IMG/VR virus record: IMGVR_UViG_3300025138_012176
Coordinates: 1 to 34,624 of that record
Source: a virus
Length of the DNA stretch: 34,624 bases
Reading direction: 5' to 3' (one strand)
Positions 1-22,471 of the stretch are shown in pieces. Each line of letters starts with the position of its first letter. Position 1 is the stretch's first letter. A program made the translations under genes and the position numbers. The notes below the pieces were generated by a model. It was not told the origin of the DNA. It did not search any database and saw only the letters and a list, made by a program, of their open reading frames with translations.

Positions 1-57
1 GACTATCGCTACATCGAGATAACCGGGCCTTGCGGCAGGCCCACCCAGGCATCGTGA
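1..57 (+). CDS. C-terminal end of an unidentified upstream gene (partial)
   Basis: Frame 1 is open from the left edge to a TGA at 55-57 and encodes only 18 residues ending GPCGRPTQAS. The call rests on that open frame and on the GTG at 54 of the next gene overlapping this stop as GTGA, the same coupling seen at other junctions downstream. Too little is visible to name a family. Confidence 0.4.
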   Translation, partial: DYRYIEITGPCGRPTQAS

Positions 58-428: not shown

Positions 429-1339
429 TGCCCGACGACGCCCAAGACTTCACCCAGAAACAGGTCACTCTCATCCCCACCGACCGAATTCGCATCCTCA
501 ATCCCCGTGTGCGCAACCGGCGCACCTTCGAAGAAATGGTCGAGAACATCGCGAAGATCGGTCTGAAGCGACCAATCACCGTGTCCCAGCGTGCAGGAAC
601 CGACCCTGTTGAATATGACCTCGTCTGTGGCCAGGGGCGGCTTGAGGCGTTCATGGAGCTTCAGCAGGATGCCATACCGGCCATTATCATCGACGCCGAC
701 GAGAGCGACTGCTTGGTCATGAGCCTGGTAGAGAATTGTGCACGCCGCCAGCACAACCCGATCGACCTCATGCGTGAAATCGGCAACCTGCGCAAACGCG
801 GCTACAATGATCGCCAGATCGCAAACAAGATCGGGGTGACGCCAGACTATGTCGGCATGATCGCAGGGCTTCTGGAGCGCGGGGAAGAACGGCTGGTCTC
901 GGCCGTGGAAACCGGCCTTCTGCCGCTGAACCTCGCCATCGACATTTCAAAGACAGATGCCGAGGGTGGCCAGCGCGCTCTGATGGACGCCTACACTCAG
1001 AAGAAGCTGCGCGGCAAGAAACTGGCCGCCGTGCGCCGTCTCATCCAGCAGCGCGACGCACAGGGTCCGCACCTTCATCGAAACCGATATGGCAGAAGCG
1101 ACGGCGCCAAGCGGCCCCTGACCAGCGACGCGCTTGTGCGAGCTTATCAACAGGAAGCGGAGCGACAGAAGATACTGATCAAGAAAGCCGAACTGACGCA
1201 GGGCCGCCTGATGTTTGTCGTGGAGGCGTTTCGCTCGCTGCGCGATGATGACCACTTCCTGACGCTCCTGCGAGCGGAAGGGCTGGACACCCTACCCACG
1301 TATCTCGGTCAATCGCTGGACGCAGGAGCGGGCGAATGA
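428..1339 (+). CDS. ParB/RepB-like partition protein, first copy
   Basis: A 303-residue ParB/Spo0J-superfamily protein. The N-terminal ParB/sulfiredoxin-like domain spans about residues 12-115, with the nucleotide-binding region seen as CGQGRLEAF (a variant of the usual GERR box) and the following MSLVENCARRQHNPID stretch. A helix-turn-helix follows at about residues 120-155 (RQIANKIGVTPDYVG). The C-terminal half resembles the RepB-type partition C-terminal region. ParB proteins normally bind parS-like sites and hydrolyse CTP with a ParA partner; no ParA is visible here. It overlaps the previous gene by 1 base and the next by 4 bases, so the module is probably co-translated. Function in partition, or as a transcription regulator of the element, is inferred. 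Confidence 0.85.
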   Translation: MPDDAQDFTQKQVTLIPTDRIRILNPRVRNRRTFEEMVENIAKIGLKRPITVSQRAGTDPVEYDLVCGQGRLEAFMELQQDAIPAIIIDADESDCLVMSLVENCARRQHNPIDLMREIGNLRKRGYNDRQIANKIGVTPDYVGMIAGLLERGEERLVSAVETGLLPLNLAIDISKTDAEGGQRALMDAYTQKKLRGKKLAAVRRLIQQRDAQGPHLHRNRYGRSDGAKRPLTSDALVRAYQQEAERQKILIKKAELTQGRLMFVVEAFRSLRDDDHFLTLLRAEGLDTLPTYLGQSLDAGAGE

Positions 1340-2253
1340 GCCGGGGCAAGCGCAAAACCCCGGACGCGGTTGCGCTCGGCTTTGAGAGTGATTGCGTCAC
1401 CGTACCGGTAGAGGCTGTCTTGCCCGTGAAGGCGTTAAGCGCATCGGTCAAATCCAGTCGCAAGTACCGCCAGATCACCGCGTCGATCAAAGAGGTCGGC
1501 CTGGTCGAACCTCCGGTGGTCACGCGATCCACGGGTGAGGAAGACACCTACATGCTGCTCGATGGACACATCCGGATCGAGGTGCTGAAGGATCTCGGCA
1601 TCGAACGGGTCGAATGCCTGATTTCCACGGACGACGAGGCCTTCACCTATAACAAGCGGATCAGCCGCCTTGCGCCCATCCAGGAGCACAAGATGATCCG
1701 CAAGGCGATCGAGCGCGGTGTGTCCGAGGAAAAGATCGCCCTGGCTCTGGACCTCAATCCGCGCAGCATTGTGCGTAAGGCCAAGTTGCTCGACGGAATC
1801 TGCGAAGAGGCCGTCGGCATTCTGAAGGACAAACATTGCGCGACGGCTGTGTTCGAAATCCTGCGCAAGATGAAAGCCATGCGCCAGATCGAGGCGGCCG
1901 AACTGATGATGAACGCGAACAATTATTCTCCAGCTTACATCTCGGCGATTTTGGCGGGAACGCCCCAGGCGCAGCTGGTGGACACCAAGAAACCCAAGAA
2001 GATGAGGGGTATCACCCCGGAGGCCATGGCCCGCATGGAGCGCGAACTGGCCCGGCTGCAGGAAGGGATCACTTCGATCCAAGACTCCTACGGCCAGGAC
2101 CACCTGCAGCTGACCGTCATCAAGGGGTATCTGGCAAAGATTCTTGGGAACGCCCGGATCGTCCGGTACCTGATGCAATATCGGCCGGAGTTTTTGGCAG
2201 AATTTCAAGCGATCACTGAGATGGCCTCCACCCCACCGCCCAAGGCGGACTAA
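1336..2253 (+). CDS. ParB/RepB-like protein with RepB C-terminal domain, second copy
   Basis: A 305-residue paralogue-like partner of the preceding gene. The ParB-like N-terminal domain (about residues 20-105) carries LLDGHIRIEVLK at the place of the ParB ENxxR/GERR boxes. A helix-turn-helix follows (about 125-155, EKIALALDLNPRSIVRKAK), then a RepB-like C-terminal domain. ATG at 1336 overlaps the stop of the first copy (ATGA). The two proteins share organisation but little obvious identity, so they are probably distinct subfamilies that work together rather than a recent duplication. Paired ParB-like proteins without ParA are typical of integrated, plasmid-derived islands; that association is from general knowledge, not shown here. 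Confidence 0.85.
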   Translation: MSRGKRKTPDAVALGFESDCVTVPVEAVLPVKALSASVKSSRKYRQITASIKEVGLVEPPVVTRSTGEEDTYMLLDGHIRIEVLKDLGIERVECLISTDDEAFTYNKRISRLAPIQEHKMIRKAIERGVSEEKIALALDLNPRSIVRKAKLLDGICEEAVGILKDKHCATAVFEILRKMKAMRQIEAAELMMNANNYSPAYISAILAGTPQAQLVDTKKPKKMRGITPEAMARMERELARLQEGITSIQDSYGQDHLQLTVIKGYLAKILGNARIVRYLMQYRPEFLAEFQAITEMASTPPPKAD

Positions 2254-2634: not shown

Positions 2635-3495
2635 GTGGAAAACGACAAGGTGGAACTTCGCTGGGGAGTCGAGCAACGGCTCGAGTTCATCGAATTCCGC
2701 CTGTTTTGGGAGGGGCATGTGAACCGTAGCGATTTGATGGAGCAGTTCGGGGTATCGGTGAACCAGGCGTCCACCGATCTGAACCGCTATATCGGCTTCG
2801 CCCCGGCCAACATGGTCTACGACAAGAGTGCACGGACCTATGTTCCTGGCCCGGACTATTCCCCGCAGTTCCTGAAGCCTGACGCCAGTCGTTACCTCGC
2901 ACAGCTGCGGTCTTTGGCTGATGGCATCATGGACAGCGACGACACTTGGATTGCTGAACTGCCTTCATATGATGCTGCGCCAACGCCGGTGCGTGGGGTG
3001 AACCCCACGACCCTGCGCTCCGTGGTCGGGGCAATCCGAAACAACGAAGCACTTGAAGTGAAGTACCAGTCCCTCTCACGCCCAGAGCCCATTTGGAGAT
3101 GGATCGCGCCTCATGCCATAGGGTTCGACGGGTTCCGGTGGCACACTCGGGCGTTTTGCCAGACGGACGAGGTCTTCAAGGATTTTCTCCTATCCCGCAT
3201 CATTGAGACTCGCGAAACCAAGGCAAGCGAAGTAACCGATGCAGCCGATGCAGACTGGCAAGAACGTGTCACGCTTGAGATCGGCCCCCACCCCGAACTG
3301 TCGGATACACAGAAACAGGTCATTGCGCTGGACTACGGGATGCAGGGTGGCACGGCAAAAATTTCCGTGCGGCGCGCATTGGTTTACTACTCTCTCAAAC
3401 GGCTCGGGCTCGACACTGATCCAGCTGCGCGGCAACCACAGGATCAGCAGATCGTTCTTCTAAATCGCGAGGTCCTCGATGAAAATCATCGATAA
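2635..3495 (+). CDS. HTH-WYL transcriptional regulator (CapW/BrxR-like)
   Basis: A 286-residue regulator. Residues about 26-58 form a DeoR-like winged helix-turn-helix (VNRSDLMEQFGVSVNQAS). Residues about 125-200 form a WYL domain, recognised by PHAIGFDGFRWHTRAFC and FKDFLLSRII. The C-terminal 80 residues fit the WCX-type dimerisation extension of BrxR/CapW proteins. Members of this family repress phage-defence operons and are thought to sense nucleic acid or nucleotide ligands. The start is a GTG at 2635 preceded by GGGGGAA. The gene overlaps the helicase by 17 bases and is the first in the operon, the classic place for such a repressor. Autorepression is inferred from family and position; it could instead be an activator. 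Confidence 0.85.
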   Translation: MENDKVELRWGVEQRLEFIEFRLFWEGHVNRSDLMEQFGVSVNQASTDLNRYIGFAPANMVYDKSARTYVPGPDYSPQFLKPDASRYLAQLRSLADGIMDSDDTWIAELPSYDAAPTPVRGVNPTTLRSVVGAIRNNEALEVKYQSLSRPEPIWRWIAPHAIGFDGFRWHTRAFCQTDEVFKDFLLSRIIETRETKASEVTDAADADWQERVTLEIGPHPELSDTQKQVIALDYGMQGGTAKISVRRALVYYSLKRLGLDTDPAARQPQDQQIVLLNREVLDENHR

Positions 3496-6400
3496 CACCT
3501 CTCAGCTTCTTGGTGACGACCTCAAGGACACAATGTCTCGCGGATCGCGTCTCAAAATCGCCGCGTCATGTTTCTCCATTTATGCATTCGAGGCGTTGAA
3601 AGCAGAGCTATCGAAGGTGGACAGCCTGCAGTTCATATTCACTTCACCAACCTTTGTACCAACCGAAGTAACCGATCGCCTACGAAAAGAACGGCGTGAA
3701 TTTTTCATCCCAAAGGCGCGCCGTGAAAGCGGCCTTTATGGAACCGAGTTTGAAATTCAGCTTCGCAATAAGTTGACGCAACGAGCGGTAGCCCGCGAAT
3801 GTGCGGCCTGGATCCGCAAGAAGGCGAAGTTCAAATCGAATACCTCCAAGGCGCCCATGCAGCAATTCATGCATGTCGAAAGCTCTGCTGAAGGCGTCGC
3901 CTACATGCCCATCAGCGGTTTCACAGCAGTCGATCTTGGCTACCAAAAGGGCGATGCTGTTTCCAACTTTGTGACGAAGTTTGACGACCCAAGTCACGCG
4001 CAGATGTATCTTCAACTTTTTAATCAGATCTGGGTAGACTCAGAGAAGGTCAAAGACGTCACGGACGCGATCTGTGATCATATTGAGTCCGTCTATCAGG
4101 AGAATTCACCCGAGCGGATCTACTTCATGATGCTTTACAATATCTTCCAGGATTTTCTGGAAGATATCGACGAAGACGTACTGCCAAATGATCTGACGGG
4201 CTATCAGGACAGCCTTGTCTGGAACAAGTTGTTCAACTTCCAGAAGGATGCAGCAACTGGGATCATCAACAAGCTGGAGACATACAACGGCTGCATTCTG
4301 GCGGACAGCGTTGGCTTGGGGAAAACGTTCACAGCTCTCGCTGTCGTAAAGTATTATGAGCTTCGCAACCGTGCTGTCTTGGTGCTTTGTCCAAAAAAAC
4401 TCGCCGACAACTGGCGGAACTACAACACCAATCTGACGACGAACATTTTTGCAGAGGATCGGTTCAACTATGATGTCCTCTGCCACACGGACCTGTCGAG
4501 GACTTCGGGCGAGTCATTCGGGATCCCGCTAAACCGGATAAATTGGGGGAATTACGATCTCGTTGTGATCGACGAATCCCATAACTTCCGCAACAACGAC
4601 GTCTACAAGGATCGCGAGACCCGCTACCAGAAGCTGATGAACAAGGTCATCCGCGCTGGTGTGAAGACCAAGGTCCTCATGTTGTCGGCCACGCCTGTAA
4701 ACAACCGTTTCACCGATCTCCGCAACCAGCTTGCCCTCGCATATGAAGGCCAGTCTGAAGGCCTAAGCCGTAACTTGAAGACCGATACGAGCGTCGAAGA
4801 GATTTTCAGGCGAGCCCAGAAAGCCTTCAACACCTGGTCGCTACTGCCCCCGGACGAACGAAACGCTGCGTCGATTCTCAAGGCGCTTGATTTCGACTTT
4901 TTCGAGCTTCTCGACGCTGTCACGATTGCCCGCTCGCGCAAGCATATCGAGACCTTCTACGACACCAAGGACATCGGTAAATTCCCCCAACGCCGGAAAC
5001 CATTGTCTTACCATTGCCCTATCACCCATCGTGACGATGTGATGGAGCTGAACGAAATCTTCGAACAGCTCTCGGTCCTCAAGCTGTCCGTTTACGCACC
5101 CATTAGCTACATCCTTCCAAGCCGCCTTCGGAAGTACGAAGAAATCTATGACACCCAAGTCGAAGGGGGGCGTGGCAAGCTGCGTCAGGCTGACCGCGAG
5201 CGCAGTCTGCAAGCCTTGATGACGACCAACCTGCTCAAGCGCTTGGAAAGCTCGGTTGAAGCGTTCCGGCTTACTCTGCGCGCCCTCGCTGCAAACATAT
5301 CACGGACGCTAACAGCGATCGGCGAATTCGAGCGATCCGGCGGCACGCAAAGCGTCAGTGATTACCTGGCCGATGTCGAAACGCTGGACGCGGAAGATGA
5401 CGAACTTGAGGGCCTCAATGAATTCACTGTCGGCAAGAAGGTTCAGATCAGTCTCGGAGATATGGACCTACCGTCTTGGAAAAACGATCTTCAGGCCGAT
5501 CTTATTCTGATCGACGATCTGGTCGCTTCGATGGATAAGGTCCGACCTGAGGACGATGCCAAGCTCCAGCACTTGCAAGACGTTATTACCCGCAAAGTTG
5601 GCGCGCCAATTAACCCGGGCAACAAGAAAGTGCTCATCTTTACGGCGTTCGCCGACACGGCAAATTACCTCTTTGCAAACCTCGCCCCTTTCGCGAAGGA
5701 TCTCGGGCTGCACACCGGAAAGGTGACTGGCTCGGATTCACCGAAGACCACACTCAAGAAGAGCTATGATTTCCAGGGCGTCTTAACGCTGTTTTCGCCC
5801 CGCTCGAAGGAAAAGGACATTATCCTGCCGGACGAGCCAGCAGAGATCGACATTCTGATTGGCACGGACTGTATCTCCGAAGGTCAAAACCTCCAGGACT
5901 GCGACTATCTGATCAACTACGACATCCACTGGAACCCGGTGCGCATCATTCAGCGATACGGTCGTATTGACCGCATCGGGTCACCTAATTCGCAGATCCA
6001 GCTGGTAAACTATTGGCCCGACATTTCGCTCGACGAATACATCAACCTCAAGGAGCGTGTCGAAAACCGGATGGTGATCGCCGACATGGTGGGTACCGGT
6101 GACGACAACGTCCTGACGGCCAAGAGTGGCGACATCGCCTACCGCAAGGATCAGCTCAAACGCCTGCAGGAAGAGGTGATCGATCTTGAAGACGTCAAGA
6201 CCGGCGTGTCGATCACCGACCTTGGCCTGAACGACTTCCGAATGGATCTGCTGAACTACGCCAAGCAGCACGGCGAGCTCGACAACCTGCCGAACGGCAT
6301 GCATGCCGTGGTACCGGCGCAGGCCCAAATGGGGCTCCGTCCCGGCGTAATCTTCGCGTTGAAAAACATCCACGATACCGTGAACATCAACCAGCAGAAC

Positions 6401-6751
6401 CGGCTCCACCCCTTCTATCTGGTCTACATCGCCGACGATGGCGAAATCATCGCTGACCATACCGAGGTCAAGCGCCTGCTCGACCTGATCCGGACCAGCT
6501 GCAAGGGCCGTGGGGTCCCTGTGCCCGACGTCTGCCGCACGTTCAACGAGCGCACCGAGGACGGCCGCAAGATGGAGCATTATTCCGGTCTGCTAAGCGC
6601 GGCAATCCGCTCCATGATCGAGGTGAAAGAAGAAAAGGATCTCGACAGCCTGTTCAGCGGTGGCCGCACAACCGCGTTGACCCACACAATCGCCGGGCTT
6701 GATGACTTCGAACTGATCGGCTTCCTGGTGATCGAGGACAGCGTCGCATGA
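3479..6751 (+). CDS. SNF2-type helicase with degenerate phospholipase-D-like N-terminus
   Basis: A 1090-residue superfamily 2 ATPase of the SNF2/HepA branch. Residues 1-200 look like a phospholipase-D-like domain (MHVESS... ISGFTAVDLGY... FNQIWVD), but the HxK(x)4D signature is reduced to HVE with no Lys or Asp, so nuclease activity is unlikely. Helicase motifs are intact: FNFQKDAA (253-260), Walker A DSVGLGKT (276-283), DESH (365-368), SATP (403-406) and QRYGRIDRIGS (from 825). A long acidic insert lies between the two RecA lobes. It should translocate on DNA or remodel protein-DNA complexes using ATP. The neighbouring DUF4391 gene overlaps by 4 bases, suggesting a complex. DISARM DrmD-like helicases are an alternative comparison, but the rest of DISARM is absent. 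Confidence 0.85.
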   Translation: MKIIDNTSQLLGDDLKDTMSRGSRLKIAASCFSIYAFEALKAELSKVDSLQFIFTSPTFVPTEVTDRLRKERREFFIPKARRESGLYGTEFEIQLRNKLTQRAVARECAAWIRKKAKFKSNTSKAPMQQFMHVESSAEGVAYMPISGFTAVDLGYQKGDAVSNFVTKFDDPSHAQMYLQLFNQIWVDSEKVKDVTDAICDHIESVYQENSPERIYFMMLYNIFQDFLEDIDEDVLPNDLTGYQDSLVWNKLFNFQKDAATGIINKLETYNGCILADSVGLGKTFTALAVVKYYELRNRAVLVLCPKKLADNWRNYNTNLTTNIFAEDRFNYDVLCHTDLSRTSGESFGIPLNRINWGNYDLVVIDESHNFRNNDVYKDRETRYQKLMNKVIRAGVKTKVLMLSATPVNNRFTDLRNQLALAYEGQSEGLSRNLKTDTSVEEIFRRAQKAFNTWSLLPPDERNAASILKALDFDFFELLDAVTIARSRKHIETFYDTKDIGKFPQRRKPLSYHCPITHRDDVMELNEIFEQLSVLKLSVYAPISYILPSRLRKYEEIYDTQVEGGRGKLRQADRERSLQALMTTNLLKRLESSVEAFRLTLRALAANISRTLTAIGEFERSGGTQSVSDYLADVETLDAEDDELEGLNEFTVGKKVQISLGDMDLPSWKNDLQADLILIDDLVASMDKVRPEDDAKLQHLQDVITRKVGAPINPGNKKVLIFTAFADTANYLFANLAPFAKDLGLHTGKVTGSDSPKTTLKKSYDFQGVLTLFSPRSKEKDIILPDEPAEIDILIGTDCISEGQNLQDCDYLINYDIHWNPVRIIQRYGRIDRIGSPNSQIQLVNYWPDISLDEYINLKERVENRMVIADMVGTGDDNVLTAKSGDIAYRKDQLKRLQEEVIDLEDVKTGVSITDLGLNDFRMDLLNYAKQHGELDNLPNGMHAVVPAQAQMGLRPGVIFALKNIHDTVNINQQNRLHPFYLVYIADDGEIIADHTEVKRLLDLIRTSCKGRGVPVPDVCRTFNERTEDGRKMEHYSGLLSAAIRSMIEVKEEKDLDSLFSGGRTTALTHTIAGLDDFELIGFLVIEDSVA

Positions 6752-7455
6752 CAGGCTTCTTCGACTATCCCAAAAGCGCTGCGTTCGGCCGGGTTCTGCC
6801 CAAGAACAAGATCTACGAACACGCAGGCGCGAACACCGCCCTGAAGGATCTGTTCGTGCGTGAGGTCGATCAGATCGTCTGGCGCTACAAGCTCGCGCCC
6901 GAAACCATCAATTTGAGCGCTACCAAATCGGTCGCCGAAATTCAGATCTTCGACATATCGCTGAAAACCGGCAAGCTGGACGAGGCCGTTCTGCGCGCCA
7001 TCGACAAGGCCATTCCTTTTCCCCTGATCTTCGAGTTGAGCCATGACGGCAAACGCAGGGCCATGGCGGCCTACAAGCGGCCCAGCGAGGCCGACAGCGC
7101 GAAGTGGGTGATCAGCGAGTATTTCGCCACCGACTGGGTGGCCGATACCGCCGCCAGGTCGCCCCTACCGGTCGCGCTTAATCTCGGTGGGCTTTACGAC
7201 GCACTTCTGTCCGGTTTGATGCCACAACAGGTTCAGGCGGCACCCGGACAGGACACCGAAGACATTCAGGCCCGCGTCGACCGGATGGAGGCGATCCGCG
7301 CCAAAACGCGAGATGTCGAACGGGTCAAGGCGCGGTTGGGGCGCGAGAAGCAATTCAACAAGCGCGTGGCAATCAACGCAGAGCTGCGCGCGGCGAAATT
7401 GGAATTGGAACGGCTGACCGGGGCGACGGCCTCGGTGACCGCGCCGAGTGAATAA
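6748..7455 (+). CDS. DUF4391 domain protein
   Basis: A 235-residue protein matching the DUF4391 family as I know it: an N-terminal LPKNKIYEH segment, then LKDLFVREVDQIVWRYKLAPETINL (split by my reading into LPKNK and WRYKL anchors), then a mixed alpha/beta core to about residue 150. The last 60 residues are a charged, probably coiled-coil tail (about 175-225, rich in Glu, Arg and Lys). The biochemical role is unknown. DUF4391 genes tend to sit between a helicase and a type III-like methyltransferase, as here, so an adaptor or nuclease-associated role in the defence complex is plausible but unproven. ATG at 6748 overlaps the helicase stop (ATGA). Confidence 0.8.
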   Translation: MTGFFDYPKSAAFGRVLPKNKIYEHAGANTALKDLFVREVDQIVWRYKLAPETINLSATKSVAEIQIFDISLKTGKLDEAVLRAIDKAIPFPLIFELSHDGKRRAMAAYKRPSEADSAKWVISEYFATDWVADTAARSPLPVALNLGGLYDALLSGLMPQQVQAAPGQDTEDIQARVDRMEAIRAKTRDVERVKARLGREKQFNKRVAINAELRAAKLELERLTGATASVTAPSE

Positions 7456-7468
7456 GAGGACGATGAGC

Positions 7469-9331
7469 ATGGAAAAAATGAAGCTGCACAGCCCCGACTT
7501 GAGCCAGGACAACATCGCCAAGATTCGGGCTCTGTTTCCGGGCTGCGTGACCGAAGCCGCCGACGAGAACGGCAAAATTCGGCTAGCAGTAGATTTCGAC
7601 CAGTTGCGGCAGGAACTGAGCGATCATCTCATCGACGGGCGGCAAGAGCGATTTCAATTAGACTGGCCAGGAAAACGGGAGGCTTTAGCGATAGCAAATG
7701 CGCCAATTGCAAAGACCTTGCGCCCCTGCAAGGAAGAGAGTGTGGAATTTGACACCACGGGTAACATTTTTATTGAGGGCGACAATCTAGATGCCCTGAA
7801 GCTTCTTCAAGAGAATTACCTTGGGGAGATCCAGCTCATATATATTGATCCACCCTATAACACTGGAAATGACTTTATATATGAGGACGATTTTTCACAG
7901 GGCTCCGATGTATACCTGCAGCGTTCGAACCAGACTGATGAAGACGGGAACCGTCTCGTGGCAAATACGTCGGCCAATGGCCGGTTCCATTCGGATTGGC
8001 TCTCATTAATGTATCCACGCCTGCGAATGGCAAGAAATTTGCTTTCCGACGATGGGGCAATTTTTATCAATATTGACGACTCTGAATTGGGAAATCTCAA
8101 GAAGATTTGCGATGAAATATTTGGTGAAAATAACTTCATTGCTAATGTTGCGTGGAAACATACGCAGCAGAGCAAAAATGACGAAAGATACTTTGCGCGG
8201 GTCTACAACTCGCTCCTTGTTTATCGAAAGTCTGACTCACTGGAAAAATTCCGCCTTCCCAGAACAGAAGCCGACAACAAGAATTACTCCAACCCGGATA
8301 ATGACGCAAAGGGTCTTTGGCGTGCAGGTGATGTGCGGAGTCCAAATTATCGGCGTACACTTTGCTTTGATATATTGACCCCCTCGGGTAAGAAAATTTC
8401 TCCACCTGACAATGGGTGGCGCTGGTCTGAGGAAACGGTCAAAGGCAAAATCAAGACTGGAGAGATCGTATTTAACGCGGATGAGACCAAAATTGTTAGA
8501 AAAATATATCTAGCCAATCAAGAAGGGCGTACGCCTGAGAACCTTTGGGATGGCGAAGTTGCCGGAACGTCTCGACAGGCAAATTCTGAACTTAAAGATT
8601 TGTTCGATGGCGTTGCAGTTTTCGACACGCCAAAACCCACCGCGCTAATAAAAAGAATAGCGAAGCTATTCTTTGATAGTTCAGATTATATCGCCCTAGA
8701 TTTCTTTGCTGGGTCCGGAACTACTGCGGCTGCATTAATGCAGCTCAATGCGGAGGATGGTGGGCGGCGTAGGGTGTTTACAGTACAGTTTCCCGAGCCG
8801 TGCTCCGAAGGATCTGAACCCCAGAAGGCCGGATATCAGACGATTGCTGAAATTTGCAAAGCGCGTATCCGCCGCGTCGGGGCTAAGATTTTGGAGAGCG
8901 ACTGCCACCCCGACTGGAACAAGGATGTCGGCTTCCGTGTCCTGAAGATTGACACATCGAACATGGAGGACGTTTATTACCGTCCTGACGAGGTCACGCA
9001 AGCTGACCTGCTCACCGCCGTCGACAACGTCAAACCGGACCGCACGGCCGAAGACCTGCTCTTCCAGGTGCTGGTCGACTGGGGCGTCGACCTGACGCTG
9101 CCCATTCGCCGCGAGACCGTGCAGGGCAAGATCGTGTTCTTTGTCGACGACAACGCGCTGGTCGCCTGTGTCGAGACCGGGATCACCGAGGACCTGGTGA
9201 AGGAACTGGCCGGGCATGAGCCGCTGCGCGTCGTGTTCCGCGACAACGGCTTCGTCTCGGATGCGGTGAAGATCAACGTCGAACAGATCTTCCGCCAGCT
9301 CTCCCCCGCCACCGACGTCAAAACGATTTAA
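7469..9331 (+). CDS. Type III restriction-modification DNA methyltransferase, Mod1
   Basis: A 620-residue beta-class N6-adenine or N4-cytosine methyltransferase, close to the usual length of type III Mod subunits. The catalytic motif DPPYNTG lies at residues 127-133 and the AdoMet motif FAGSGTT at 413-419, in the beta-class order with the target-recognition segment between them. It should methylate one strand of a short site and guide Res. I prefer ATG 7469, with AAGAGGA eight bases upstream and an N-terminus (MEKMKLHSPDL) matching Mod2; GTG 7448 and ATG 7463 are alternatives. The middle of the gene (about 7640-8870) is visibly AT-richer than its 3' end, which is nearly identical to Mod2 and suggests recombination. 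Confidence 0.9.
   Translation: MEKMKLHSPDLSQDNIAKIRALFPGCVTEAADENGKIRLAVDFDQLRQELSDHLIDGRQERFQLDWPGKREALAIANAPIAKTLRPCKEESVEFDTTGNIFIEGDNLDALKLLQENYLGEIQLIYIDPPYNTGNDFIYEDDFSQGSDVYLQRSNQTDEDGNRLVANTSANGRFHSDWLSLMYPRLRMARNLLSDDGAIFINIDDSELGNLKKICDEIFGENNFIANVAWKHTQQSKNDERYFARVYNSLLVYRKSDSLEKFRLPRTEADNKNYSNPDNDAKGLWRAGDVRSPNYRRTLCFDILTPSGKKISPPDNGWRWSEETVKGKIKTGEIVFNADETKIVRKIYLANQEGRTPENLWDGEVAGTSRQANSELKDLFDGVAVFDTPKPTALIKRIAKLFFDSSDYIALDFFAGSGTTAAALMQLNAEDGGRRRVFTVQFPEPCSEGSEPQKAGYQTIAEICKARIRRVGAKILESDCHPDWNKDVGFRVLKIDTSNMEDVYYRPDEVTQADLLTAVDNVKPDRTAEDLLFQVLVDWGVDLTLPIRRETVQGKIVFFVDDNALVACVETGITEDLVKELAGHEPLRVVFRDNGFVSDAVKINVEQIFRQLSPATDVKTI
8915..9303 (+). repeat. 3' segment of mod1, directly repeated in mod2
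   Basis: This segment aligns without gaps to 11344-11732 at a constant offset of 2429 bases. Differences are few and mostly silent. One uninterrupted identical run is 9111-9165 versus 11540-11594 (55 bases), and another of similar length follows near 9225-9290. It covers the Mod C-terminal region and could serve as a homologous-recombination site. Confidence 0.9.
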
Positions 9332-9498
9332 CCAAGAAGATTGAGAGTGTGCAAAGCCACACGACACCACCCGAAACAAGCGGCGACAAGCCCCCAGGCG
9401 CTTCCCAATCGGCGCTGACACGGTTCAGAAGTACGAGAAGAACACGACACCAAACGAAGTGCATGACGAGCAAGAACACCAAAACAGAAAGCGACCCG

Positions 9499-9831
9499 AT
9501 GAACATAGATTTCTTTAAAGACGCGACCGACGTAGTGCTTGAAGTCGAAGTAAACCCTGATGCTGCAGGTCGGTTTGAGTCACGATATCGAGCCGTAACC
9601 GGTTCGAACCCTAATCTTGGAGAGGGTTACCAACATCAACCGAACAAATGGGGTCTAGAAGTCCGGGTTTATTTCAATAGTGAGGTGGATATGTCCGATG
9701 AGTTCACCTCTATTGACGTTTACGTTGAGCAAGGTGACCGGCCCTATCGAAAGCGCTGGGTCTATAGACTGAATGACCGTGAATTTTTTTGGTCGCTCGT
9801 TGAGGCCGGATATCGACTTGGCGAAAACTAA
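9499..9831 (+). CDS. Small protein of unknown function between the two mod genes
   Basis: A 110-residue acidic protein, starting MNIDFFKD, with no signal peptide, membrane segment or recognised domain. The predicted strand-rich pattern (VVLEVEV, LEVRVYF, SIDVYVEQG) and many aromatic residues suggest a compact beta-rich fold. ATG 9499 is my choice because the residues before it look non-coding in character. ATG 9463 in the same frame, behind a GAAG sequence, would add 12 residues. The 167 bases between mod1 and this gene hold nothing clear. Base composition is AT-richer than the helicase and Res genes, like the variable parts of the mods, so it may have travelled with one of them. A modulator or immunity role is speculation. 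Confidence 0.6.
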   Translation: MNIDFFKDATDVVLEVEVNPDAAGRFESRYRAVTGSNPNLGEGYQHQPNKWGLEVRVYFNSEVDMSDEFTSIDVYVEQGDRPYRKRWVYRLNDREFFWSLVEAGYRLGEN

Positions 9832-9867
9832 TACTCTGACAACGTAAGGCGAACCGAGGGTGAAAAC

Positions 9868-11760
9868 GTGACGATAAAAAAACTTGAAATGAAAACCCCT
9901 GAATTGTCACGGGACATCAAAACTCAACTTGCTACGTTGCTGCCGGAACTTGTGACGGAAGTGAGAAACGAGGCTGGCGAACTTGAGCAAGTCATTGATT
10001 TTGAACTACTGAAGCAGATCCTTGATGGACAAGCCACAGAGGGTATGCGTGAGCGGTACCATCTAAACTGGCCTGGGAAAGCAGCCGCACTCATTGAAGC
10101 CAATACATCCTTGGAAAAAACCGTTCGTCCATTCGAAGCCGATAGTCTGCATTTCCAGAGCACCAAGAACTTGTTCATCGAAGGAGACAATCTAGACGGG
10201 CTTAAGCTAATCCGCGAGAGCTACCTGGGGAAAGTTGATATGATTTATATTGACCCCCCCTACAACACAGGAAGTGACCTAATTTACAACGATCAATATA
10301 AGTTGGGCGCGGACGAATATCTCGAAAAATCGGGGCAAATTGATGGAATGGGGGGTAAGCTGGTAGCGAACTCTCAAACCAACGGTCGCTTTCATTCTGA
10401 CTGGCTGTCGATGATGTATCCTCGGCTACGAATAGCCCGCCAACTCCTGTCTGATCTTGGGCTCATTTTTATTTCAATCGATGACAATGAGCGCGCTAAC
10501 CTACAGAAGCTTTGCGAAGAGGTCTTTGGGGCCAGCAATTTTTTGGGTTGTTTTGTTTGGAAGCGTCGTAGCGGCGCCATGGATGCTGTGACAAACCTCA
10601 GTGAAGATCATGAGTACGTTTTGGTCTACTCGAAGTCGCAGGCCACCCTCAAAGGTGTTGAGAGAACATTTGAAAAGTATAAAAACCCAGACAACGACCC
10701 TCGGGGCGCCTGGATCTCAGATAACCTCAGCGCAGGAAAACCGGGGGGCGACACATATTATCCGATAACGGACCCAGACACCGGGAACGAGTTTCTTCCT
10801 CCGAAGGGAAGATACTGGCCCTATAGCCGTCAAACTATGGCGCAAAAAGTTTCTGAAGGCCGTGTCATATTTCCTAAAGGCCCGACTGGTACTCCGATGC
10901 TGAAGCGCTTTGCGTCTGAAGCAATGAAACCCACAATACCGGTATCGTCTTGGATTGAACGCCCCACTGGCGGCGGTGGGCAAAGTACTATCGTTTCTCC
11001 AATGAATAGCTCTGCAACGACGGCGTTGAAAAATCTTTTCGGAGGTAAGCTGTTTTCATTTCCCAAGCCGGTCGAGCTAGTAAGAGCGCTTATTAAACAA
11101 GGAGCAGCGAAAGACGCACTAATTTTGGACTTTTTTGCGGGCTCGGGAACGACTGCTCAAGCAGTTTTCGAATGCAATGCAGCTGACGGTGGGAACCGTC
11201 AGTGCATTCTGATTCAGTTGCCCGAGGCAATCGATGAAGGATCAGACGCATTTAAAGATGGTTACGAGACTATTGCGGACTTCTCTAAGGAACGCATACG
11301 CAGAGCTGGTGCCATGGTCCTTGAAGGTGAATGTCATTCCGGCTGGAACAAGGACGTAGGCTTCCGCGTCCTGAAGATCGACACGTCGAACATGCGGGAC
11401 GTCTATTATCGTCCTGACGAAGTCAAACAGGCCGACCTGCTCACCGCCGTCGACAACGTCAAACCGGACCGAACGGCCGAAGACTTGCTCTTCCAGGTGC
11501 TGGTGGACTGGGGCGTCGACCTGACGCTCCCCATCCGGCGCGAGACCGTGCAGGGCAAGATCGTGTTCTTTGTCGACGACAACGCGCTGGTCGCTTGTTT
11601 TGACACTGGCATCACCGAGGATCTGGTGAAGGAGCTGGCCGGGCATGAACCGCTGCGCGTCGTGTTCCGCGACAACGGCTTCGTCTCGGATGCGGTGAAG
11701 ATCAACGTCGAACAGATCTTTCGTCAAATTTCTGTCACGACAGAAGTAAAGGCGATCTAA
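9868..11760 (+). CDS. Type III restriction-modification DNA methyltransferase, Mod2
   Basis: A 630-residue beta-class methyltransferase paralogous to Mod1. DPPYNTG is at residues 129-135 and FAGSGTT at 423-429, both intact, so the enzyme should be active. The N-terminal 170 residues are recognisably similar to Mod1 (FIEGDNLDGLKL, RFHSDWLSMMYPRLR). The target-recognition segment between about residues 220 and 400 differs strongly, implying a different DNA site. The last 140 residues are nearly identical to Mod1. Translation starts at a GTG (9868) behind GAGGGTG. The stop abuts the next ATG (TAAATG). It probably competes or alternates with Mod1 for the single Res. Confidence 0.9.
   Translation: MTIKKLEMKTPELSRDIKTQLATLLPELVTEVRNEAGELEQVIDFELLKQILDGQATEGMRERYHLNWPGKAAALIEANTSLEKTVRPFEADSLHFQSTKNLFIEGDNLDGLKLIRESYLGKVDMIYIDPPYNTGSDLIYNDQYKLGADEYLEKSGQIDGMGGKLVANSQTNGRFHSDWLSMMYPRLRIARQLLSDLGLIFISIDDNERANLQKLCEEVFGASNFLGCFVWKRRSGAMDAVTNLSEDHEYVLVYSKSQATLKGVERTFEKYKNPDNDPRGAWISDNLSAGKPGGDTYYPITDPDTGNEFLPPKGRYWPYSRQTMAQKVSEGRVIFPKGPTGTPMLKRFASEAMKPTIPVSSWIERPTGGGGQSTIVSPMNSSATTALKNLFGGKLFSFPKPVELVRALIKQGAAKDALILDFFAGSGTTAQAVFECNAADGGNRQCILIQLPEAIDEGSDAFKDGYETIADFSKERIRRAGAMVLEGECHSGWNKDVGFRVLKIDTSNMRDVYYRPDEVKQADLLTAVDNVKPDRTAEDLLFQVLVDWGVDLTLPIRRETVQGKIVFFVDDNALVACFDTGITEDLVKELAGHEPLRVVFRDNGFVSDAVKINVEQIFRQISVTTEVKAI
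11344..11732 (+). repeat. 3' segment of mod2, direct repeat of mod1 3' segment
   Basis: This is the second copy of the repeat described at 8915-9303, in the same orientation and reading frame. Homologous exchange between the copies would delete the small gene and swap the Mod specificity segment that remains attached to the shared C-terminus. Confidence 0.9.
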
Positions 11761-12435
11761 ATGCCAACAATCACGGAAATTCGACATGTCGTTAAGTCTG
11801 AACGTTATTGGATCTTTGTAGACGGCCAATACTGTACGAGCGTAAGAGCTAGAACTTTTCCAGCGCTAGCACTTGCGGTTGGGCAGGAGATTTCTTGCGA
11901 TAAGGTCATCGATCTCGAAAAGTTTCATTGGAAGCATAAATATGGCGAGCAAGCCTGGGAGAAGGAGAAAATTCGAATTGATCGTGTGACGAACATTATT
12001 GAAACAAAGTTTCCGAGACTCAAAGTGTCTGTTGTCGGTTTTGGGGCTGATTCGAACGCATTCTTGGCAGAACATCCAGATGAGTCTGGAAAGCCCGATC
12101 TTTTGATAGAGGGACGAGACTCCGGCCGAAAATACTGCATGCTTGAGGTGTCGGGAACGGAAATTATGCGCGGCGATAGCTATTGGGTGCGTCCAGACAA
12201 ATTAAGTTACGCACAGAAACACCCAACAGAAGATGTGTGGGTCTGCCTTCATTACAGCCAGCCATCTGAAAAGCTCGTTTTCATTAGACCAAAACCAGAA
12301 ACCGAATACAGGCCGTCTGAGAAGGAAATACGAGGCTCAATCGAGCATTATGTTGAATTTTCAGAACATTCAGACGAGCACAAGAATGCCGATGACTTCT
12401 TCGACTACCTGCTTTCGAAGAGAGATCTAAAATGA
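11761..12435 (+). CDS. Unknown protein with RecX-N-like domain and PD-(D/E)XK-like core
   Basis: A 224-residue protein that I do not recognise as a named family. Residues about 1-60 resemble the N-terminal domain of RecX ([30 protein letters not shown]). Residues about 95-175 show a nuclease-fold-like pattern: KPDLLIE, then MLEVSGTE, then [13 protein letters not shown]. In a PD-(D/E)XK reading, Asp of PD and Glu of LEVSG are present, but the catalytic Lys is replaced by Ser, so cleavage activity is doubtful. It starts immediately after the mod2 stop and ends 16 bases before res, inside the operon. A DNA-binding or specificity helper for Mod2/Res is the simplest guess. Domain calls are by eye and need profile searches. 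Confidence 0.6.
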
Positions 12436-12451
12436 GGGAGATTTCGGAAAG

Positions 12452-15400
12452 ATGAAGCTTAAATTTAAAGTCCAGCCCTATCAGACAAGCGCTGTCGATT
12501 CTGTTGTGGACTGTTTTGCCGGACAGCCGATGGCCAGTGGCGTCAACTATCGGATCGACCCGGGCCGTAAGGCACAGACCAGCGCGTTCGAGGAAGGCTT
12601 CAAGAATGCCGATATCGCGCTGAGTGAGGCACAGGTGCTGGCGAACATCCAGGATGTGCAGCGCCGCCAGAACCTTCCGTTCAGCCAAAGCCTCACCGAC
12701 TTCACCGTCGTTAACGGGCGTGGCGAGCGAACACCGGCGCCAACGACCTACACCCGCGACGCGCTGGCCGCGAGCCGCTACCACCTCGACGTCGAGATGG
12801 AAACCGGGACCGGCAAGACCTATTGCTACATCAAGACCATCTTCGAGATGAACAAGCGCTTCGGCTGGTCGAAGTTCATCATCATGGTGCCCAGCATCGC
12901 CATCCGCGAAGGCGTCTACAAATCGCTTCAGATCACAGCCGACCATTTCACCGAAAGCTACGGCAAGAAGGCGCGGTTCTTCATCTACAACTCAAAGCGT
13001 CTGCATGAGCTGGAAAGCTTCTCGTCGGACGCTGGCATCAACGTAATGGTCATCAACATTCAGGCCTTTGCCGCCCGTGGTGCGGACAACCGTCGCATCT
13101 ACGACGAGCTCGACGACTTCCAGTCCCGCCGCCCCATCGACGTAATTGCCAGCAACCGGCCGATCCTGATCCTGGACGAACCGCAAAAAATGCAGGGAAA
13201 CGCGACGATGGAAGCGTTGCCGAAGTTCAAGCCGCTGATGGTCTTGCGCTATTCAGCCACTCACAGGACACAGCACAACAGGATCCACCGCTTGGACGCA
13301 TTGGACGCCTACAACCAAAAGCTTGTGAAGAAGATCGCCGTACGTGGCATTCAAACGCGCGGTCTGGCCGGAACCAATGCCTACCTTTACCTCGAAGGGA
13401 TCGACATCTCGAAGAAAGCGCCGGTTGCTCGGATCGAGATGGAAGTGAAGCTGAAAACCGGCGAAATCAAACGGCAACTTCGGCGGCTGGAATTTCGCGA
13501 CGACCTGTTCACGCTTTCCGGGGAGCTGGATCAGTACAAGGGCTTCACGATCTCTCAGATCGACTACAACCACGACACGGTCGAATTCACCAACGGCGAG
13601 GTTCTTACGGCTGGCGAGGCCACAGGCGACGTGTCAGAGCGCGACATCCGGCGGATCCAGATCCGCGAGACGATCAAAGCGCATTTCGACAAGGAAAAGC
13701 AGCTCTTCGCTCAAGGGATCAAGATCCTTTCGCTGATTTTCATCGATGAGGTGGTTAAGTACCGCGACTACGGTCAGGCGGACGAAAATGGAGAGTACGC
13801 CCGCGTCTTTGAAGAGGAATACGAGCTGTTGAAGGAAGAGTATCTTTCAGAGCTGGCAATCGACAACGAGGCCTACCGAACGTATCTCGCGGCGATTGAC
13901 GTGACGAAGACTCACAACGGCTATTTCTCAATCGACAAGAAAACCAAACAGTTGAAGGATCCCGCAGTCGGTGCGCGGGCCGTCGATTCAGATGATGTCG
14001 ACGCTTATGATCTCATCCTGAAGGACAAGGAGAGCTTGCTAAGCCTTCCCGGTCCAACCGACAGCGCCGATCAACGGGCAAAAAGAGAGGTTCGCTTCAT
14101 ATTCTCTCACTCTGCGCTGCGGGAGGGGTGGGACAACCCAAATGTCTTCGTCATGTGCATGTTGAAGCACAGCGACAATACGATCTCTCGACGCCAGGAA
14201 GTGGGTCGGGGATTGCGGCTATCCGTAAACCAGCAAGGTGACAGAATGGACCACCCGGCGGTGGTTCATGACATTAATGTTCTTACGGTGGTCGCGAGCG
14301 AAAGCTACAAGGACTTCGTGGGCGGGCTGCAGAAGGAAATTTCGGAGACATTGTCCTCGCGGCCCCGGCAGGCCACCGAAGCCTACTTTACAGGCAAGAC
14401 CATCACCACCGATGCGGGCCCAATTGAAATCACGGCTGCAATGGCGAAGCAGGTCTACCGGTATCTCGTTAAGAATGATTACACGGACAACGCTGATCAA
14501 ATTTCTGAAGACTATCACCAGGCTAAGGAAGCAGGCACGCTGGTCGAGTTGCCAGATGAACTTAAGCCGCATGCCGAGCAGATATTCCAGCTCATTGACA
14601 GTGTGTTCAGCGATGCACAGCTGCCCAAAGTGGACGACGGGCGAAAACCAAAGACGAACCCGCTCAATGCCAACTTCGAGAAGAAGGAATTCCAGGAGCT
14701 CTGGTCCCGGATCAATCGGAAAGCAGTCTATCGCGTGGACTTCGACTCAGCTGAGTTAGTTCGAAAATGTGTCAGCGCCCTCGACAGCCAGCTCCGCGTA
14801 ACACCACTTCAGTATACCGTTCAAGCAGGCGTTCAGACGGATGGGATTACCGACGACCAGTTGAAGGCTGGCGACGGTTTCGAGGTGACCGCGACTTCCA
14901 CCCAACATGGTGGCTCGGTGTACTCACGAGTGAAATATGACTTGGTTGGCAAGATCGCAGAGAATTCCCAGCTCACGCGACAGTCGACTGCCTCAATCCT
15001 TTCAGGCTTAGAGACTAGTATCTTTGCTCAGTTTCAGCAGAATCCAGAGCACTTTATCGCAGAGGCATCGCGGATTATTGCCGAGCAGAAGGCGACGATG
15101 ATTATCGAGCGTCTGAGCTATGACGAGGTCGCTGACTGCTACGACGTCGATATCTTCACCGCCAATCAGAGCGGTCAAGATTTCTCGCGCGCTAGCGCCA
15201 AGCTGAAGAACCACGTCTACGATTATGTTGTAACCGATTCTGATGTCGAAAAGCGTTTCGTGGCAGAGTTGGAAACCAGCTCAGAAGTGGTCGTATACGC
15301 CAAGCTTCCTCGTGGTTTCCTCATTCCAACGCCAGTTGGAGATTACAACCCAGATTGGGCGATCTCTTTCAAGGATGGGGGCGTGAAACATATTTATTTC

Positions 15401-15580
15401 GTGGCTGAAACCAAAGGTTCGATGTCAACGATGAAATTGCGCGAGATAGAGAAGACCAAAATCGAGTGCGCCAGAAAATTCTTTGATGAAATCAATCAGA
15501 AAATTTCACAAGATAAGGTGAAATACGAAGTCGTCACTGATTACGCAAAGTTGATGGATATCGTCGGTCGTGCAGCGTGA
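12452..15580 (+). CDS. Type III restriction enzyme Res subunit (helicase-nuclease)
   Basis: A 1042-residue SF2 helicase with a C-terminal nuclease, slightly longer than classical type III Res. Walker A is METGTGKT (116-123), motif II is DEPQK (242-246), motif III is around RYSATHR, motif V contains [11 protein letters not shown], and motif VI is [11 protein letters not shown]. The C-terminal PD-(D/E)XK nuclease shows PD at 967-968 and ETK at 986-988, so both activities look intact. With a Mod dimer it should recognise unmodified sites, translocate or slide on DNA using ATP, and cut. It follows the RecX-like gene by 16 bases and overlaps the GIY-YIG gene by 1 base. Two Mods are available for this one Res. 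Confidence 0.92.
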
Positions 15581-16527
15581 TGAAACCCCGCTCGATCAAC
15601 ATCTTCCTCCTCGACGGCGATCCGAACGGCATTCGGGTAGCGCAAATCTCGATGTCTACGATCCAGGCAATCGCCTTCCGCCGCAACCAGCTGCGCCGGG
15701 TTCGCGAGGCTTTTCCCGAGATTGAGCGGCCAGGCGTCTATATCTTGATTGGCTCCGATGACAATCAGGCGGATCAGCAACTCGCCTATATCGGTGAGTC
15801 TGAAGGTATCGGTGGTAGGCTATCCACTCACAACTCCAATGAAAGCGGGCGAGATGCCAAAGGCTTTTGGACAGACACGGTTGTCCTGATAAGCAAAGAT
15901 GAGAACCTTACCAAGAGCCATGCACGCTACGTAGAAGCATGCTTGATCCGCAGCGCTGGGAGCAATCCTCGCTGGACCCTGCCCAATACTAGAATGCCGT
16001 CCAACGATGCTGGGAAGTTACCGCTTCCTGATCGCGCGGCCATGGACGAATTTGTCGATCAGACAAAAACACTGGTCGGCGCTCTAGGCTGGGATGTGTT
16101 TCGCGAGATGCGTGGGCGTGCCCCGCAATTGACACCAATAGAAGAGAGCATGCCACAGCCTGAACCGAGCGAAAGCCCAAAGTTCTTTTTCCGTGGCGAA
16201 GGCTTTTCGGCAGAAATGGTGGTCGGCCCGTCCGGGGATTTCATCGTTCAAGCGGGGTCAAAAGCGCGGCTTCGAACCACATCCACAATCCCCAGAGGAA
16301 CCACGACTTTGCGCTCCACCCTGCTTGAAAAGGGCGTGTTCCGTGAAGACGGGAAATTTCTCCTCTTTACCAGCAACTACAGCTTTTCATCGGTTTCAGC
16401 CGCCGCTGCAGCAGTGATCGGAGCAAGCGCGAACGGCCGAATTCTTTGGAAGCTGCCCGACGGATCAACCTATGCGGATTGGGAGTCGGGTCTGAGCGAA
16501 AACGACGCTGCTGAGCCAACCAAATAG
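15580..16527 (+). CDS. GIY-YIG nuclease with C-terminal DUF4357
   Basis: A 315-residue protein. The GIY-YIG domain spans about residues 48-130 with GVY (52-54), YIG (70-72), the catalytic Arg (R80, GGRLSTHN) and the metal-binding Glu (E119, YVEACLI) all present, so it is predicted to be an active endonuclease. A DUF4357 domain follows at about 225-300 (SKARLRTTSTIPRG to GSTYADW). ATG 15580 overlaps the Res stop (TGATG); a GTG at 15577 is a possible earlier start. As the last gene of the operon it may be a second effector that cuts DNA after Res or helicase action. GIY-YIG/DUF4357 proteins are common near restriction genes, but their role is not settled to my knowledge. Confidence 0.85.
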   Translation: MKPRSINIFLLDGDPNGIRVAQISMSTIQAIAFRRNQLRRVREAFPEIERPGVYILIGSDDNQADQQLAYIGESEGIGGRLSTHNSNESGRDAKGFWTDTVVLISKDENLTKSHARYVEACLIRSAGSNPRWTLPNTRMPSNDAGKLPLPDRAAMDEFVDQTKTLVGALGWDVFREMRGRAPQLTPIEESMPQPEPSESPKFFFRGEGFSAEMVVGPSGDFIVQAGSKARLRTTSTIPRGTTTLRSTLLEKGVFREDGKFLLFTSNYSFSSVSAAAAAVIGASANGRILWKLPDGSTYADWESGLSENDAAEPTK

Positions 16528-16672: not shown

Positions 16673-16936
16673 CTATGGTGCCGACCAACTGCAGGCCCGC
16701 GCCTGATCTCGCATGACCGCGTAATCGCCCATCATCTCGACGACGGCCGATCCGTCCGGCAGAAGAGCGAGTTCCTCCGTCGCGCGGTTCCGAATTTCCC
16801 TACTGTATTCCACGACCGGCGGACATGCCGCCAAACCGTTCGCTTCAAAACCCGCCGTCGCGCAGCCGGTCAACCAGCTCGCCACGATCACGAGGACGGC
16901 GAACCGCCGCCTCCAGCATCCGGCGTTGGATTTCAT
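16673..16936 (-). CDS. Outer-membrane spanin lipoprotein (Rz1-like)
   Basis: An 87-residue small lipoprotein. A basic N-terminus (CWRRRF) is followed by a hydrophobic segment and a lipobox LTGC, after which the mature protein is short and periplasmic. I start at ATG 16936 because the signal sequence begins there; longer upstream extensions in this frame run antisense to nothing plausible and would bury the signal. Its 5' third overlaps the inner spanin gene in a different frame, the typical Rz/Rz1 nested arrangement. With the inner spanin it should bridge the envelope and fuse inner and outer membranes at the end of lysis. Sequence conservation of spanins is low, so the call rests on topology and context. 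Confidence 0.75.
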   Translation of the reverse strand: MKSNAGCWRRRFAVLVIVASWLTGCATAGFEANGLAACPPVVEYSREIRNRATEELALLPDGSAVVEMMGDYAVMRDQARACSWSAP

Positions 16937-17102
16937 TGGTCTTCTCCCTGATTTCAAGGCGTTCCACCAGGCGACCAACGCGCTCGCCGGAGCGCCGGAT
17001 TGAGAGCAGGAACAGAATGATGGCGAGCGCGATTGCAACGTAGCGCATGGTGGCCCGCGCCCAGGCGCTTGCCCCGACCAGTCCCAGCACAGCCGCGATC
17101 AT
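16845..17102 (-). CDS. Inner-membrane spanin (Rz-like)
   Basis: An 85-residue protein with an N-terminal hydrophobic region (residues about 1-15 and a stronger membrane segment at 20-36, YVAIALAIILFLLS) and a charged, helical periplasmic tail rich in Arg and Glu, as expected for an inner spanin. ATG 17102 overlaps the endolysin stop (ATGA); ATG 17048 would leave one membrane segment and fits Rz topology better, so the start is uncertain. The outer spanin gene overlaps its 3' end in another frame. Confidence 0.65.
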   Translation of the reverse strand: MIAAVLGLVGASAWARATMRYVAIALAIILFLLSIRRSGERVGRLVERLEIREKTNEIQRRMLEAAVRRPRDRGELVDRLRDGGF

Positions 17103-17773
17103 CTCTGCCCCCGTTTCCAGTCATCAAGGCGGGCGTAGATCGTGACCGCGATCCCCCCGAGAGCCACGGCGATGAACACCCAGCGCAACGTGTCCAGATA
17201 CGGCACGAGCGGCAGGATGGCGCTCTGGGTCTCGGTCAGGACGCTCTGCGCCACCTCGACCCCGGCTGCGGCCAGCGTCGCCGCTCCGGCAGCCCCGCCG
17301 CCCCTCATGGTGCGGCTGTCGGCCAGTACTTCGCGCGCAGGCGGGGTTTCAGCCGCGAAAGCCGTCTCCCGGACCGGGAAGCGCTCGCCCCACTGACGCG
17401 CCGGGCCGAGGTCGACATGGATGAACCCCGAGCGCGGGTAGAAGCCGAAGCCGAGGAACCCGACCTCCCGCGCCGCGGCCTCGAACGCCACCGGGTCATG
17501 GTTCGACATGGCGATGTCGAAGGCCGCACCAGCCATGTGCTTCGAGCGTGTTGCCCCACCGACCGAACGGTTGTGTTCCGGGCTTCGATAGGCCGATCGG
17601 ATGATCAGCGATTTGCCCAGCCGGTCGCGGAGCGCCTGCAGTTTATCAAGCGCGGGTTGGTTGATCAGCAGCTTGCCAGTGCCCCGGCAGGCAATTTCAG
17701 CGGGTGAGAAATTGGGCCAGCGCCAGGTGCCTCCCGGCACATCGCGCCAATGGTCGTAAAATGTCGTGGTCAT
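17099..17773 (-). CDS. M15-family peptidoglycan peptidase (endolysin) with C-terminal membrane segment
   Basis: A 224-residue protein whose first 135 residues are a Peptidase_M15 (YcbK/D-Ala-D-Ala carboxypeptidase-like) domain. Zinc and catalytic residues are visible as SKHMAGAAFD (H79, D86) and HVD (H119, D121). It should cleave peptide bonds in peptidoglycan for host lysis. There is no N-terminal signal peptide. The C-terminal 35 residues contain one clear membrane helix (about 197-214, VFIAVALGGIAVTIYA) followed by a basic tail, unusual for an endolysin. ATG 17773 is chosen over an upstream in-frame start because GGAGG lies eight bases before it. It opens the lysis cassette with the two spanins. 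Confidence 0.85.
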   Translation of the reverse strand: MTTTFYDHWRDVPGGTWRWPNFSPAEIACRGTGKLLINQPALDKLQALRDRLGKSLIIRSAYRSPEHNRSVGGATRSKHMAGAAFDIAMSNHDPVAFEAAAREVGFLGFGFYPRSGFIHVDLGPARQWGERFPVRETAFAAETPPAREVLADSRTMRGGGAAGAATLAAAGVEVAQSVLTETQSAILPLVPYLDTLRWVFIAVALGGIAVTIYARLDDWKRGQR

Positions 17774-17787
17774 GGTGTCCTCCAGAA

Positions 17788-17813
17788 ACAAAAAGACCCG
17801 CCACAAGGGCGGG
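17788..17813 (-). terminator. Intrinsic terminator between tail operon and lysis genes
   Basis: On the minus strand a 6-bp GC stem (arms at 17808-17813 and 17797-17802, 5-base loop) is followed by TCTTTTTG. This is a good rho-independent terminator lying just before the endolysin ribosome site. It would end or attenuate tail-gene transcription and lower expression of the lysis genes unless antitermination occurs. Confidence 0.7.
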
Positions 17814-17847
17814 TGCGGGTTGGCAGGTGAACTGAGGCGGAGCGCTT

Positions 17848-22468: not shown

Positions 22469-22471
22469 GTC

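Follow-up and report, generated by a model that had tools for sequence, protein, structure and literature searches.

An expanded type III restriction-modification operon in a prophage, with a helicase-DUF4391 pair and two Mod genes of near-identical C terminus

The operon and its closest described relatives

Type III restriction-modification systems with an extra helicase-like ATPase encoded 5′ of mod were described by Murray et al. in 2021 in more than 500 genomes (PMC8259958). In that work the ATPase had no nuclease motif, methylation was independent of it, and no ATPase peptides were detected in the active Eco86II fractions. Here we analyze a nine-gene operon from the IMG/VR record IMGVR_UViG_3300025138_012176 (34.6 kb; "the window" denotes this whole stretch of 34,624 nucleotides). 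An earlier sequence-only reading had been unable to match the operon to a named system. The outline of Murray et al. (PMC8259958), together with PADLOC profile matches for the helicase, Mod, Res, and GIY-YIG proteins, supplies such a match: the operon is an expanded type III system whose broad plan was on record before. What it adds to that plan is a constant DUF4391 partner, a set of accessory gene slots, and a two-Mod arrangement with a common docking tail. The near-identical C termini of the two Mods are its most informative feature. The reading we favor, with moderate confidence, is that one Res serves two swappable specificities, aided by a nuclease-less Snf2 motor and DUF4391, at a prophage defense hotspot.

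All nine open reading frames (ORFs) lie on the plus strand at positions 2635 to 16527 and are tightly packed with overlaps or short gaps, just as first described. Pfam, PADLOC, and NCBIfam profile searches gave a firm family for seven of them and none for a small ORF (U160) and a second protein (U224). The Mod, Res, and helicase families found by Pfam and PADLOC fit an expanded type III operon, as first proposed. The core begins with HEL, an SNF2/superfamily 2 (SF2) helicase (3479..6751; PF00176 [SNF2-rel] and PF00271 [Helicase_C]), followed by the DUF4391 protein (6748..7455; PF14335, E 8e-60), the beta-class DNA methyltransferase (MTase) Mod1 (7448..9331; PF01555 [N6_N4_Mtase]), and the restriction helicase-endonuclease Res (12452..15580; PF04851 [ResIII] and PF19778 [RE_endonuc]). 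A second, divergent type III Mod, Mod2 (9868..11760; N6_N4_Mtase), stands between Mod1 and Res. PADLOC, whose use the sequence-only reading had proposed, returned profiles for HEL (C3a139, "HKD+Snf2," full length, E 5e-126), both Mods (MTase_III, E 3e-229 for Mod1 and 5e-212 for Mod2), Res (REase_III, E 0), and the GIY-YIG nuclease (PDC-S14, E 6e-92). Sequence motifs appear intact in Mod1, Mod2, Res, HEL, and the GIY-YIG protein. Promoter and terminator scans gave scores at or below chance.

With its helicase gene 5′ of mod and no endonuclease motif, the window has the group 3 layout of Murray et al. It resembles Eco86II and BspHIV in the extra SF2 helicase followed by mod and res, in the missing nuclease motif, and in the wide distribution of the type, but the text describing those enzymes (PMC8259958) has no DUF4391, second Mod, or accessory genes. 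EcoP15I and EcoP1I have homologous Mod (4zcf_A) and Res (4zcf_C) proteins, docking of the Mod C-terminal domain (CTD) on Res, and alleles differing in the target recognition domain (TRD); unlike the window, they are without HEL, DUF4391, and a second Mod. No BREX assignment can be made, since PglZ, BrxC, and PglX were all lacking among the window proteins scanned.

The four-gene core and its optional companions

A DUF4391 search with one genome per species yielded 80 loci. Core prevalence was assessed in 399 Pseudomonadota genomes and gene order in the 73 complete loci of the enlarged locus set (L numbers below). The HEL-DUF4391-Mod-Res core is widespread and its order is kept between genomes. 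DUF4391 was present in 23 of the 399 genomes (22/398 without the chosen center genome), 22 of which had a strong Res, in 19 cases no more than about 8 kb away on the same contig. A strong HEL was found in 20 of the 23, and in the genomes missing a strong Res or HEL, including all three of the latter, DUF4391 sits close to a contig end. HEL without DUF4391 occurred in a single genome of the sample (G074). This class of Res was detected in 43 genomes, 22 with DUF4391 and 21 without; the HEL-DUF4391 pair is thus an extra that roughly one in two of these systems has. DUF4391 is immediately preceded by HEL in 70/73 loci, which upholds the initial view of the pair as part of the system; no gene separates DUF4391 from Mod in 60 loci or Mod from Res in 54. 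Escherichia coli loci of Eco86II-like layout carry the same four genes, with an HTH/WYL-type regulator in front of them in CFT073 and a MAD1-like helix-turn-helix (HTH) protein in NCTC11023, and E. coli plasmids also bear the core.

Overall, the conserved unit consists of HEL, DUF4391, Mod, and Res only and is not a nine-part machine. The idea that the nine genes form one multilayer unit was accordingly not sustained: the WYL and GIY-YIG genes are optional and U160-Mod2-U224 is a rare insertion. The co-occurrence and conserved order expected by the same reading held for the four core genes and failed for the GIY-YIG gene.

The WYL-domain transcriptional regulator (2635..3495; PF13280, E 3e-9), which probably represses the operon, has homologues immediately 5′ of HEL at many alphaproteobacterial loci, and L067, L068, L070, and L150 encode more distant ones (113 to 118 bits); at other loci a MAD1-like HTH protein takes its place. 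The regulator is thus optional, one of several that are interchangeable. At the other end of the operon, the GIY-YIG nuclease with DUF4357 (15577..16527; PF01541, PF14267) matches the PDC-S14 profile over its full length (305.8 bits, residues 1 to 303). Among about 80 close relatives, 9 have it beside the core. We rejected it as a core part: strong matches occur in about 37 of the 399 genomes and beside DUF4391 in none (0/23). The window copy is one of many optional plug-ins and would act as a second nuclease. The slots that vary between loci are the DUF4391-Mod gap, the Mod-Res gap, and the region 3′ of Res, and they hold an OLD-type nuclease with DUF2130, Abi_2, Mrr with HARE-HTH, Schlafen/AlbA, Fic (SoFic), UvrD-like, BRO-N, PLD, or GIY-YIG proteins. 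Candidate back-up effectors in gaps of HEL-type III operons (Schlafen/AlbA, OLD plus DUF2130, Abi_2, Mrr, Fic, and UvrD-like) were noted at L031 12688-14409, L152 13925-17217, L060 10768-11676 and 16744-17778, L072 12564-13688, and L068 10669-13371.

The Walker A (DSVGLGKT) and DESH motifs of HEL are conserved in 87 relatives. HEL also has a conserved N-terminal domain of about 240 amino acids (aa) that PADLOC calls "HKD." No conserved HKD or HxK motif was found in this domain across the 87 HEL sequences, in agreement with Murray et al. (PMC8259958); the window HEL had no Pfam PLD match even at E 5, and the PDB profile search returned no relative of the domain. A relation to PLD rests on the PADLOC name and a subthreshold match in a distant member (L151, E 0.12). 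The most economical reading, and the most likely one, is that HEL is a motor without nuclease activity in an auxiliary role. Together with DUF4391 it would raise restriction efficiency in the cell, e.g., by setting Mod-Res complexes in motion or stripping away bound proteins.

One rival, which we consider unlikely, holds that HEL-DUF4391 is an independent DISARM-like restriction arm for which the Mod methyl marks serve as the self signal, giving two attack pathways with one modification system. Beyond the HEL family itself, the best-named relatives include DrmD, the helicase of DISARM (NF038317, 152 bits), and DpdE, and the main effector of BREX-related type 2 systems is an HKD-Snf2 helicase paired with an N6 methylase (PMC12839542). 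HEL does share a related SNF2 helicase core with DrmD and the PLD-helicase antiphage proteins, but it falls far under the curated cutoffs (152 versus 610 bits for DrmD) and the partner genes are missing, DrmA and DrmB having no match among the operon proteins beyond a weak cross-match to the HEL helicase. HEL also has no conserved nuclease motif, and no complete case had the pair without a linked Res, which speaks against self-sufficiency.

The DUF4391 model, predicted from 74 sequences with a predicted local distance difference test (pLDDT) score of 90.8, is an alpha/beta protein with a C-terminal helical hairpin, and residues K19, W45, L49, P51, E64, K110, Y150, E200, and Q202 are invariant in the alignment. 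A structure search against PDB and BFVD gave no match at E < 0.001, suggesting that perhaps the fold is new. A literature search, which did not reach subscription papers and preprints, found no paper on DUF4391 in a type III role and no work later than that of Murray et al. on the extra type III helicase.

Two Mod genes beside one Res

Both Mods are beta-class enzymes with DPPY and FxGxG motifs (DPPY and FAGSGTT in Mod1) and a TRD between them, as defines a type III Mod; Mod1 is homologous to EcoP15I Mod (4zcf_A, E 3e-58). Identity between the two is 97% over the CTD but only 26% over the TRD and 33% over the first 60 residues. When the window was compared with itself by blastn, the last 388 aligned bases of the two genes appeared as a sharp-edged direct repeat of 91.8% DNA identity (8910..9297 in Mod1 and 11339..11726 in Mod2, both on the plus strand).

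A complete U160-Mod2-U224 cassette was found in one other genome only, that of Marimonas lutisalis (L039), whose operon DNA is about 75 to 88% identical to that of the window. Within each genome the CTD DNA of Mod1 and Mod2 is more similar (91.8% in the window, 94 to 95% in M. lutisalis) than between orthologues of the two genomes (88 to 89%), which indicates, from sequence comparison, that the Mod CTDs have been homogenized by gene conversion in both lineages. A single-Mod locus, L003, is 88% identical to the window from HEL to the start of Mod1; the match breaks off in the TRD and picks up again at 87% in the Mod1 CTD, with Res then also at 87%, and the Mod2 CTD matches the same L003 stretch at 87%. 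This pattern is that of an L003-like operon into which U160-Mod2-U224 has been inserted. The M. lutisalis Mod1 carries about 100 N (L039 12435-12535) bordered by copies of the C-terminal repeat, of which 125 bp are identical on the two sides. We rejected a broken Mod1 as the explanation, the interruption being an assembly gap flanked by repeat and not a mutation. A further Mod copy may be hidden in the N run, and multi-Mod operons are probably underdetected in short-read assemblies.

Such mosaicism has partial parallels. The phasevarion mod alleles modA and modS likewise have a variable central TRD and conserved 5′ and 3′ ends, but with one Mod per locus and phase variation by simple repeats (PMC8125046), whereas in the window the exchange extends to most of the MTase domain and a single operon has two Mods. 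Type I systems with duplicated hsdS genes also combine several specificity genes with one nuclease (PMC7394358); theirs is another enzyme class in which the specificity genes recombine to switch, while both window Mods stand in one forward operon. The literature search, with the same limits of reach, found no case of two Mods with homogenized tails beside one Res.

Res combines SF2 helicase motifs with a C-terminal PD-(D/E)XK endonuclease, the mark of a type III Res, and aligns with EcoP15I Res (4zcf_C, E 3e-68) including PDWAI...ETK. Part-by-part identities were correlated across 67 single-Mod loci. Identity in the Mod CTD tracks that of Res (r = 0.88, Mantel P = 0.001) and of HEL (r = 0.79), and Res and HEL track each other (r = 0.89). 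The TRD and the C-terminal half of the MTase vary independently of Res (r = 0.07), the N-terminal MTase part nearly so (r = 0.15), and the extreme N terminus is intermediate (r about 0.5); the switch from Res-independent to Res-tracking identity lies near residue ~485. In 32 locus pairs a common TRD (>60%) occurs with different Res (<80%), and in 141 a common Res (>88%) with different TRDs (<45%). The EcoP15I structure shows the ModA CTD (539-644) in extensive contact with Res and Mod dimerization via the N-terminal and MTase domains (PMC4490356).

The favored reading follows this division. The middle of mod, with its catalytic and recognition parts, would be an exchangeable cartridge, and the CTD, Res, HEL, and DUF4391 the chassis. 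Mod1 and Mod2 would each form a homodimer, probably via their own N-terminal domains, and recognize and methylate different asymmetric sites. As both would offer the same C-terminal docking surface, the single Res could assemble with either dimer and cleave incoming unmodified DNA at sites of either kind, a defense activity that we infer from the protein families.

Several points weigh against this scheme. The res gene lies beside the 3′ end of mod, and exchange of the central part does not disturb either flank, so the CTD-Res correlation is explicable by linkage and docking in this operon is what we infer from it; the Mod N terminus, beside DUF4391, also correlates. The HEL-Res correlation reflects co-inheritance and not contact. 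Gene conversion is possible without selection, and Mod2 might be silent or might act alone as a methyltransferase. Finally, HEL is likened to the Eco86II/BspHIV helicase by gene layout and description, not by sequence, and partial cleavage was seen by Murray et al. in the absence of the helicase (PMC8259958).

The small ORF at 9349-9831 exists as first reported, but the U160 start is probably near 9499 (9499..9831, plus strand; ~110 aa, MNIDFF...) because the L019 and L024 homologues have 111 aa. In L019, L024, and L039 a homologue immediately precedes a Mod2-type Mod. On a Paracoccus marcusii plasmid (L164 5689-9321), a 35% identical homologue directly follows an N-6 DNA methylase that is preceded by two helicases. 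The plasmid case suggests a general methylase-associated small protein. U224 (11761..12435, plus strand) has its only relative in M. lutisalis (92%; 1/298 genomes of the family) and none in plasmids or viral contigs. The earlier "RecX-N/PDxK" label calls for correction: there is one weak NCBIfam match (NF010733 [RecX], residues 1 to 56, E 2e-4), and the PD...E-V-S pattern is without lysine, leaving any nuclease fold putative. The AlphaFold model of U224, built from two sequences only, was too poor to use (pLDDT 46).

That Mod2, U160, and U224 are a passenger, i.e., an orphan methyltransferase with its own partners, regulatory or protective against other restriction systems and uncoupled from Res, strikes us as doubtful. 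U160 does travel with Mod2-type Mods, the cassette is rare, as the single U224 relative illustrates, and the Mod2 N-terminal domain is divergent, but the Mod2 CTD has been homogenized to that of Mod1 in both species, and the sole Mod next to Res in L019 and L024 is of Mod2 type, so the type works with such a Res. Even less probable, in our estimation, is a recent chance product of duplication or recombination with no lasting function and likely to collapse to one Mod. Two full Mods are indeed rare (the window and L039, plus a partial case in L056) and direct repeats invite deletion; against this, the arrangement is kept in two diverged lineages, both Mod frames are open in the window, and the 5′ parts of Mod2 are 89.6% identical in DNA and 96 to 97% in protein between orthologues, pointing to purifying selection.

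Prophage setting and implications

The host of the prophage is a marine Rhodobacterales-type bacterium. From 16690 on, the window holds a prophage tail and head module (16690..34621, minus strand) that is 85 to 88% identical to about a dozen other prophages, with homology beginning sharply, at or just after about 16690. The operon and the phage module are arranged alike in M. lutisalis. At the same place, sister prophages carry SspABC (L168), BrxL (L178), or a HEL-type III core with a single, different Mod (L156), and the operon looks like cargo in a prophage defense hotspot. The related prophages (L167-L185, window 16690-34621) encode Mu-like head proteins, and their best-named relatives are Rhodobacter capsulatus phages (capsid protein, 47 to 49%).

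Upstream of the operon lie the C-terminal end of a serine recombinase and two ParB/RepB-family genes (30..2253, plus strand; PF07506/PF02195). The recombinase is full length in L039. The same succession recurs near the core in L018 (in opposite orientation), L039, L156, and L163, and this set may be what mobilizes the island.

The HEL-DUF4391 pair was always tied to Mod-Res in the genome sample, which defines a minimal four-gene unit for testing. Within it, DUF4391 is the constant partner of a helicase whose role Murray et al. leave explicitly open (PMC8259958). The chassis/cartridge split predicts which part of Mod is exchangeable to retarget a type III enzyme, and the two-Mod operon is a natural test of one Res serving two specificities. 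More tentatively, the locus may exemplify a type III specificity array, in which recombination between the tail repeats (8910-9297 and 11339-11726) adds and removes Mod cartridges with a common Res-docking tail and one Res is aimed at several sequences at once. If true, type III systems would thereby have an equivalent of the duplicated hsdS genes, and the HEL-DUF4391 pair would serve as a general booster.

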